The notes below the pieces were generated by a model. It searched no databases. It saw nothing but the letters and a program-made list of their open reading frames with translations, and had not been told where the DNA came from. A program made the translations under genes and the position numbers. From Flavobacteriales bacterium (GTDB taxonomy: Bacteria > Bacteroidota > Bacteroidia > Flavobacteriales_C > GCA-002722245): DNA of 60,345 nt. The number at the start of each line of letters is the position of its first letter. Positions within the stretch are counted from its first letter, which is position 1. The stretch lies in contig JAQXEE010000109.1 of the NCBI GenBank assembly GCA_029251005.1, forward strand, positions 1 through 60,345. The letters are read 5' to 3'. This document shows, piece by piece, positions 588 to 4,038 of this stretch.

Positions 588-650
588 TTTATTTTTTCGT
601 AAAACAAATGTCAGATTTTATTCACAAAGAAAAAAGGACCAAGCATAAGT

Positions 651-709
651 TTAACCCTTAATTAACCTCATCTAAAATTCCTTAACGTTAAGTTAACATA
701 CGATTAACA
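651..709. promoter_or_regulatory. Pho-box-like array of TTAAC direct repeats
   Basis: Five TTAAC hexamers read in the same direction: TTAACC at 651 and 662, then TTAACG at 682 and TTAACA at 693 and 704. Within each group the period is exactly 11 bases, one helical turn, as in PhoB/PhoP operators of other phyla (6-base repeats with 5-base gaps, TTAACA in Gram-positive PhoP). The array sits between a phosphate porin and a Na+/phosphate cotransporter. A TATTTT element starts at 721, 11 bases after the last repeat, which would suit an activated promoter for the cotransporter. The repeat geometry is seen; regulation by a PhoB-type protein is inferred. Confidence 0.55.
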
Positions 710-833
710 TTGTTATTTCTTATTTTCGCTTTGAATTTCTTTGGAGGAAGGTCCAGAAAAAAGAATAATACAACTTAAAAAATTTAGTTAAATCGGCTTT
801 TTAAAACTTTAAAAGCCTTTAAAACAGAAAATT

Positions 834-3066: not shown

Positions 3067-4038
3067 ATGAATTTAAACGAATTAGAGCAAAAAATATTTA
3101 AAATTAAAACTCAAACTGAGTTTAAAAAAATAGCTCTTCAGGTGTTTAATCACCAATATCAGCAGAATAAAATTTATAATAAGTTTTGTAATCTTTTGGA
3201 AAAGAGACCTGGATCGGTAAAAGAAATTAAAGACATTCCTTTTATTCCAATCTCATTCTTTAAATCTCAAACCATTAAAACAGGTTCTTTTACCGAACAA
3301 AAAACATTTACGAGTAGCGGAACATCAGGAACTGAAACAAGTAAACACCATGTGAAAAGTCTAAAACTATACGAGAACAGCTTTTTAAAGGCTTTTGACG
3401 CTTATTACCCAGACTGGAAAAGCCGTGTTATTATAGGCTTACTTCCTTCATATTTAGAAAGAGAAGGCTCTTCACTGATATACATGGTTGATAATTTAAT
3501 TAATCACTCGGACAATAAGAACAGTAAATTTGAACTTGAACTAACATCTGAATTTATAAACTACCTAGAAACTTCTCCTGAACCCAAAATTTTATTCGGA
3601 GTCACATTCGCCTTAATCGAAATGGCCAATAAAGAAGTAAAGCCTCGAAATACAATTATAATTGAGACGGGTGGTATGAAAGGTAGAGGAAAAGAGTTAA
3701 CGAGAGATGAATTACATGAGCTAATTCAAACCAATATTCAACCAAAAGCAATACATTCTGAATATGGGATGACCGAATTGATGTCTCAAAGTTATCTTCA
3801 AAATAAAAATTTCGAATGCCCTAATTGGATGAAATTCTTAGTTCGCGAAACAACTGATCCTTTGAATGTAATGCTTTCGGGAAAAGGAGCGTTAAATGTA
3901 ATTGATTTAGCGAATCTTTATTCTTGCTCATTTATAGCAACAGATGATTTGGGTAAAGTACATACCGATGGAAGTTTTGAAGTTTTGGGTAGAATTGACC
4001 ATACTCAAATGAGAGGTTGTAATCTTTTGATTCTTTAA
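3067..4038 (+). CDS. LuxE-like acyl-protein synthetase / acyl-activating enzyme
   Basis: The 323-residue product belongs to the LuxE/PaaK-like group of adenylate-forming enzymes. The ATP-binding loop FTSSGTSGT is at residues about 81-89, preceded by the conserved P-F-I-P-I-S-F-F-K segment. Later motifs are HSEYGMTELMSQ (adenine-binding region) and ATDDLGKVHTDGSFEVLGRID, which matches the D-L/x-x-x-x-G-x-x-x-V-x-G-R-x-D hinge. LuxE itself activates fatty acids for luciferase, but there is no lux gene here; in Bacteroidota lone homologues are common and their substrate is unknown. The length is shorter than full ANL enzymes, as is usual for LuxE. The stop codon overlaps that of rodA on the other strand by four bases (TTAA). 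The family is clear, the reaction in this organism is not. Confidence 0.75.
   Translation: MNLNELEQKIFKIKTQTEFKKIALQVFNHQYQQNKIYNKFCNLLEKRPGSVKEIKDIPFIPISFFKSQTIKTGSFTEQKTFTSSGTSGTETSKHHVKSLKLYENSFLKAFDAYYPDWKSRVIIGLLPSYLEREGSSLIYMVDNLINHSDNKNSKFELELTSEFINYLETSPEPKILFGVTFALIEMANKEVKPRNTIIIETGGMKGRGKELTRDELHELIQTNIQPKAIHSEYGMTELMSQSYLQNKNFECPNWMKFLVRETTDPLNVMLSGKGALNVIDLANLYSCSFIATDDLGKVHTDGSFEVLGRIDHTQMRGCNLLIL

Follow-up and report, generated by a model that had tools for sequence, protein, structure and literature searches.

The question raised by this locus is whether a cluster of five TTAAC pentamers, lying between two divergent genes at the left end of the window (the whole stretch of 60,345 nucleotides from a Flavobacteriales bacterium that was analysed), forms a regulatory site, and, if it does, which protein would read it and which of the two genes it would serve. 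The original prediction held that the pentamers have the geometry of PhoB/PhoP binding sites, that both neighbouring genes take up phosphate and that the two groups of pentamers might serve the two promoters separately. Its description of the genes was borne out by matches to Porin_O_P (PF07396) on one side and to the Na_Pi_cotrans and PhoU domains on the other (Table 1). The porin, truncated in the window, is complete in the corresponding locus of a relative (L197; 385 aa). Downstream of the cotransporter gene, a homologue of LuxE-like acyl-protein synthetase lies at 3067–4038 of the window.

Table 1. Features of the spacer and its flanking genes (positions in the window)
Feature	Position	Strand	Remark
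Porin_O_P family porin, N-terminal part	3–587	−	PF07396, 1.2e-9; cut by contig end
Candidate −7 element of porin gene, GACATTTG	605–612 (5' base 612)	−	One of three 5/6 candidates on the minus strand
TTAAC box 1, group 1	651–655	+	70 bp before TATTTTCG, phase 0
TTAAC box 2, group 1	662–666	+	59 bp before TATTTTCG (15 + 44), phase 0
TTAAC box 3, group 2	682–686	+	First unit of the genome's only exact triple
TTAAC box 4, group 2	693–697	+	Exact TTAAC
TTAAC box 5, group 2, promoter-proximal	704–708	+	17 bp before TATTTTCG
Candidate −7 element of nptA, TATTTTCG	721–728	+	5/6 to TAnnTTTG; one of four 5/6 candidates in 700–833
nptA-like Na/Pi cotransporter with PhoU domain, 566 aa	834–2534	+	PF02690, 1.2e-60; PF01895; NF037997 and TIGR00704 over cut-off

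All five pentamers are exact on the plus strand at the places originally read from the sequence, and their successive starts are 11, 20, 11 and 11 bp apart; the 11-base steps claimed inside each group were measured once in group 1 and twice in group 2, and the two groups are offset from each other by 2 bp out of phase. Within each group (651/662; 682/693/704) the boxes are tandem direct repeats of at least two units with an 11-bp period, as is characteristic of Pho boxes. In the 8-mers around the five boxes (TTTAACCC, ATTAACCT, CTTAACGT, GTTAACAT and ATTAACAT) the outer bases vary and the TTAAC core is common to all. When the window was dinucleotide-shuffled 200 times, no shuffle placed five TTAAC within 58 bp of one strand and 4 placed four there; the window holds three TTAACN6TTAAC pairs against 0.47 expected, a number reached in none of 100 shuffles. 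The exact 11-bp triple (682–708) is unique in the 2.9 Mb genome. No genome-wide excess of 11-bp pairs was found, with 26 pairs against 830 over 30 spacings (about 28 per spacing); the reversed pattern, found 38 times in the same genome, is a biased control, with CAATT about twice as common as TTAAC pairs there. Since the pairs are not in excess, it is the array rather than the pair that stands out, and pairs alone predict nothing in this genome.

The left end of the window's contig overlaps the end of another contig of the same genome (C13) by 119 bp, and one strand of C13 encodes a 227-aa response regulator and a 339-aa histidine kinase along with pstS, pstC, pstA, pstB and phoU, so that a PhoB–PhoR-type pair lies beside pst on a contig that overlaps that of the array. 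The regulator combines a PF00072 receiver with a PF00486 Trans_reg_C domain, has a HisKA/HATPase_c neighbour and is adjacent to pstSCAB–phoU, as is usual for PhoB-type regulators. Its two best-scoring families are TIGR02154 (PhoB; 197.5 bits, cut-off 296.2) and NF053854 (192.8 bits, cut-off 270), though both cut-offs are missed. The DNA-binding domain aligns with that of Escherichia coli PhoB (3t72, 1qqi; E 1e-14), with a common DRT-DVHIR-LR stretch, and the recognition-helix region VWGTDVVVGDRTIDVHIRKLR aligns with a 21-letter stretch of the E. coli protein.

The expectation that such arrays lie before phosphate genes held in part in this genome. It held for the unique triple at nptA and for one of the two other places that differ from the triple by one mismatch (C13:8952–8979), which starts 38 bp ahead of the pstS ORF; it failed for the other (C145:27167), which lies inside an unrelated 543-aa ORF on the other strand and was taken as chance. 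At the pstS promoter no TAnnTTYG is present; the octamer GACATTTG, the same as the candidate −7 element of the porin gene, stands there (L173), 15 bp from the last box as counted on the sequence. When 25 loci with own-genome pairs were compared with reference proteins by tblastn, phosphate genes were neighbours at two places alone, that of pst (L042, L043) and that in the window (L054, L055). A 30% pstB match in L048 was read as another ABC ATPase.

Comparison of the spacer among relatives gave conservation in the nearest genome and weakening in others. The 96% relative (G001) retains each of the five boxes, and on a single contig (L197) it has the order phoU–pstBACS–box–phoR–phoB–porin–five-box array–nptA. 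In the sister-genus genomes G005, G007, G008 and G009 the exact triple lies between a divergent phoB and a (porin–)pstSCAB–phoU–nptA operon, the porin gene being absent at this place from G005; G006 has the exact triple before a Porin_O_P gene and, at its pst operon, a pair 37 bp before TAnnTTYG. In the same-genus genomes G002 and G003 only a one-mismatch pair is kept, in register at 38 bp before TATTTTTG, and no pair scoring at least 9/10 precedes nptA in G004. In all three of these same-genus genomes phoB (77%) is directly divergent from nptA, and PstS was not found (completeness 91, 77 and 95 for G002, G003 and G004). The absence of PstS is seen alongside the weaker (G002, G003) or unseen (G004) nptA boxes, and perhaps pst and box strength were lost together. 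TTAAC pairs also precede nptA in two loci with 60% identity (L069 and L103), and G276 (L275) repeats the order of the window, with nptA preceded by a porin gene and then a pair in register (37), but with every element on the same strand.

Across the class, taken to be Bacteroidia, 295 genomes were scanned, and 29 of them have the exact 11-bp triple, at 36 places in all; of the two controls, the same letters at 13-bp spacing occur at 2 places in 2 genomes and the reversed 11-bp triple at 22 places in 18 genomes (summed from the table). These counts include the microsatellite-like triples L137, L160 and G035:C18. Gene context was taken for 30 of the 36 places, and phosphate genes (pst, phoB-like, Porin_O_P-like, PHO4, PhoU_div or nptA) adjoin 16 of them, which places the triple upstream of phosphate-acquisition genes beyond nptA and pstS of this genome. 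The window's own family supplies seven of the 16 (L038, L147–L152), which leaves 9 of 23 outside the family, among which L158 and L159 are counted solely via a 59% PhoB homologue. L140 and L141 were called porins from blastp (34%; 3e-51 and 1e-55). The other 14 loci (L137, L139, L143–L146, L153–L155, L157, L160, L162–L164) are non-phosphate or unclear, the flanks of L137, L153, L155, L160 and L162 having been compared by blastp with 15 reference proteins only.

Of 30 PstS-family matches, of which 18 exceed the family cut-off, nine have upstream a three-unit score of 13/15 or more at period 11, two have one at period 7, and none has one at periods 8–10 and 12–15; five of the nine period-11 sites belong to the window's own family and eight to matches over the family cut-off. 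Upstream of 53 nptA relatives the same score was reached by 8 at period 11 and by 0–2 at other periods. The period scan left out the short loci L082 and L084, the duplicates L108, L111 and L112, the weak matches L130–L136, and L099, L101, L104 and L105.

Bacteroidota promoters differ from the sigma70 −10/−35 type and have a −7 element with the consensus TAnnTTTG, and the position of the boxes relative to this element could be followed in other genomes. Eleven of 32 exact-triple rows have TAnnTTYG in the next 68 bp (21 have none), and in nine of the eleven it lies within 1 bp of 26, 37 or 48; the exceptions are the window (17) and L139 (64). The phase was set from these 32 rows before a larger test, in which 395 genomes were scanned with the pattern TTAACMTTN3TTAACN6-36TANNTTYG, with which the 32-row set shares a few sites. 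The scan gave 85 matches in 76 genomes (22 for the reversed control, summed), and in 75 of the 85 sites the −7 element follows the first base of the last TTAAC by 15, 26 or 37 bp (±1), and any one intermediate distance is represented by 0–2 sites. With every family–distance combination entered once, 46 of 56 are in register against 29% expected (p 2.5e-16). Because the pattern requires TAnnTTYG 6–36 bp downstream, these figures tell where the −7 element lies if present and not how often it is present; among eight pstS loci with a plus-strand three-unit score of at least 13, TAnnTTYG is present in five (26, 26, 26, 37 and 15) and absent from three. In these other genomes we read the distances as a helical register of the boxes with RNA polymerase.

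The window itself agrees less well. Its spacing of 17 between box 5 and TATTTTCG is outside 15, 26 or 37 ±1, and is shared by 2 of the 85 sites; the site therefore matches the register rule loosely, and the −7 element may be misassigned. The assignment of TATTTTCG is also uncertain because its last G is replaced by A in the 96% relative (L067).

Direct repeats of this kind are familiar from other phyla. The PhoP box of Bacillus subtilis consists of TTAACA repeats, with TTAAC units in 11-bp steps; the array, this box and the PhoB box of E. coli are all 11-bp direct repeats, and the two known boxes are recognized by winged-helix response regulators. The PhoB box of E. coli is described as two 11-nt units with CTGTCAT (PMC4415409) and as lying 10 bp upstream of the −10 element (PMC1906773), whereas the Bacteroidota sites have TTAAC in place of CTGTCAT, and distances of 15, 26 and 37 bp occur. 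The SphR box of the cyanobacterium Synechocystis, as described, is CTTAACCT three times, each 8 bp with a 3-bp linker (PMC1906773). It has in common with the array the TTAAC core, tandem direct repeats with an 11-bp period, at least three units and a place upstream of pst genes (PMC1906773); it differs in that the full 8-mer consensus is not reached in the array, where only the TTAAC core is common to the five units, and in that the promoter here is of the Bacteroidota −7 type.

The original prediction had called Pho boxes in Bacteroidota poorly described, which needs qualification, since in the literature searched one experimental motif was found. For PhoP of Riemerella anatipestifer, DAP-seq and EMSA gave TTTAACA as the most conserved motif bases, likened to the ArcA motif (PMC9603813). 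This is a Bacteroidota regulator with the same pentamer as the array, the comparison being by motif only; the main text of that paper contains neither 'pst' nor 'direct repeat', and its section 5 has no −7 register (PMC9603813). In Flavobacterium johnsoniae, whose phoBR cluster includes a gene for an OprP-like porin, a PHO regulon linked to PhoBR is described (PMC8115612); its main text gives no operator motif and lacks the terms 'pho box', 'motif' and 'promoter' (PMC8115612). The box as such is of a known kind; its Bacteroidota form and a register of 15 + 11n were not found described in the literature searched.

Taken with the genes around it, the array is very probably a Pho box for the PhoB-like regulator linked to pst, through which nptA would be activated. 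The operator would consist of tandem 11-bp units, each TTAAC followed by six bases, read head-to-tail by a regulator of the OmpR/PhoB family, presumably the phoB product encoded nearby with the kinase phoR beside pstSCAB–phoU. Low phosphate is the likely signal, upon which the kinase would phosphorylate the regulator; regulator molecules may then stack on successive units along one face of the helix, ending beside the −7 element, and the stacked protein may recruit RNA polymerase to the nptA promoter. The proposal of a PhoB/PhoP-type operator is supported as to period, gene context in the genome and in the class, linkage to phoBR–pst and −7 register elsewhere, and lacks support in the division of the groups between the two promoters.

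Among the alternatives, the one that survives best, unlikely as it is, would make the array the operator of another OmpR/PhoB-family regulator that uses the same TTAAC code in 11-bp steps and has phosphate genes as some of its targets. At two loci from different families (L145/L207, G107:C4:119143; L146/L208, G293:C1:3289401) the exact triple lies between a kinase/regulator pair and a divergent OMP_b-brl_3, TonB-receptor-like gene, and these regulators share only 31% identity with PhoB. Pairs with a −7 element downstream also precede genes for DUF5916, OMP_b-brl_2, thioredoxin-like and other proteins. Context was taken for 30 of the 85 pair-plus-−7 places, with flanks partly scanned by Pfam: 13 adjoin phosphate genes (L249, L251, L254, L255, L257, L259 via the second gene, L267–L270, L272, L275 and L276), four of the 13 being from the window's own family and L257 and L268–L270 repeating exact-triple sites, and 17 have none as far as seen, their next genes being DUF5916, OMP_b-brl_2, thioredoxin-like, UxuA, DPPIV_N, MarR, a sub-threshold MIP or without a Pfam match. 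With no phosphate gene seen at 17 of 30 loci, the code may reach beyond phosphate, as in the Riemerella study, where DAP-seq gave 583 peaks, with the conserved motif around 579, and non-phosphate targets (PMC9603813). Against another reader in this genome, however, stand the physical linkage of the array to phoBR–pst, the place of one of the two next best arrays at pstS, and the next best regulator, which is 40% identical to PhoB among the best 4 of 13 matches listed.

A variant compatible with the Pho-box reading would let group 1 (651/662) serve the porin gene and group 2 nptA, as had originally been suggested. The porin gene is divergent and belongs to a family with phosphate in its name, and the minus strand holds a partial repeat, TTAAT-TTAAC-TTAAG, with a score of 13/15. 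Both groups, however, are exact in the plus-strand orientation, towards nptA; group 1, exact on that strand only, is in phase 0 with the candidate nptA −7 element, whereas the 11-bp-spaced minus-strand repeats are in phase 3 (707/696/685) or phase 5 (665/654) with the porin GACATTTG. Single minus-strand units lie at 691 (exact, phase 9) and at 716 and 661 (4/5 letters, phase 1). Since both groups are exact on the plus strand and the spaced minus-strand units are out of the porin register, one group per promoter is left unsupported, and we hold this division to be slightly less probable even than a different regulator. That the boxes are a functionless chance cluster of a common AT-rich pentamer, a view to which the lack of excess of 11-bp pairs in the genome would lend itself, is highly improbable in the face of the shuffled windows, the recurrence at phosphate promoters across the class and the promoter register.

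With the array read as a Pho box, a wider proposal can be made, on which we are evenly divided: in a promoter grammar of the Bacteroidia, PhoB and several PhoB-like regulators may stack on 11-bp TTAAC units placed in strict helical register, 15 + 11n bp from the −7 element TAnnTTTG, in place of a −33 element, with the number and strength of units setting the gain of each promoter and with phosphate genes as the ancestral core of targets that now range more widely. In the literature searched, few Bacteroidota operators of two-component activators have been mapped, and phosphate supply matters to marine and plant-associated members. A sequence rule of TTAAC units in 11-bp steps at 15 + 11n to the −7 element would make Pho regulons predictable across the class without experiment, and suggests a way in which activators may dock to a polymerase whose promoters are unusual.

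Several further sites were noted during the scans. Recurrent pairs in register or close to it (16, 17, 26, 27 and 37) before DUF5916, OMP_b-brl_2 and thioredoxin-like genes (L252, L253, L261–L263, L277, L278) are candidate non-phosphate targets, and in L272 (G069:C46:18133) a pair with TAnnTTYG at 21, off the peaks, precedes a VTC-domain gene, with a possible link to polyphosphate. Within about 6.6 kb of L215 (G085:C6:172000-183000), around genes for a TonB receptor, a PKD/Por-secretion protein and a methyltransferase, there are four three-unit sites that have one mismatch or none and of which two overlap. Finally, the five-box scan of the viral collection gave seven viral contigs (L031–L037) with dense TTAAC arrays, often CTTAACC, in a mixture of 11-bp and other spacings.
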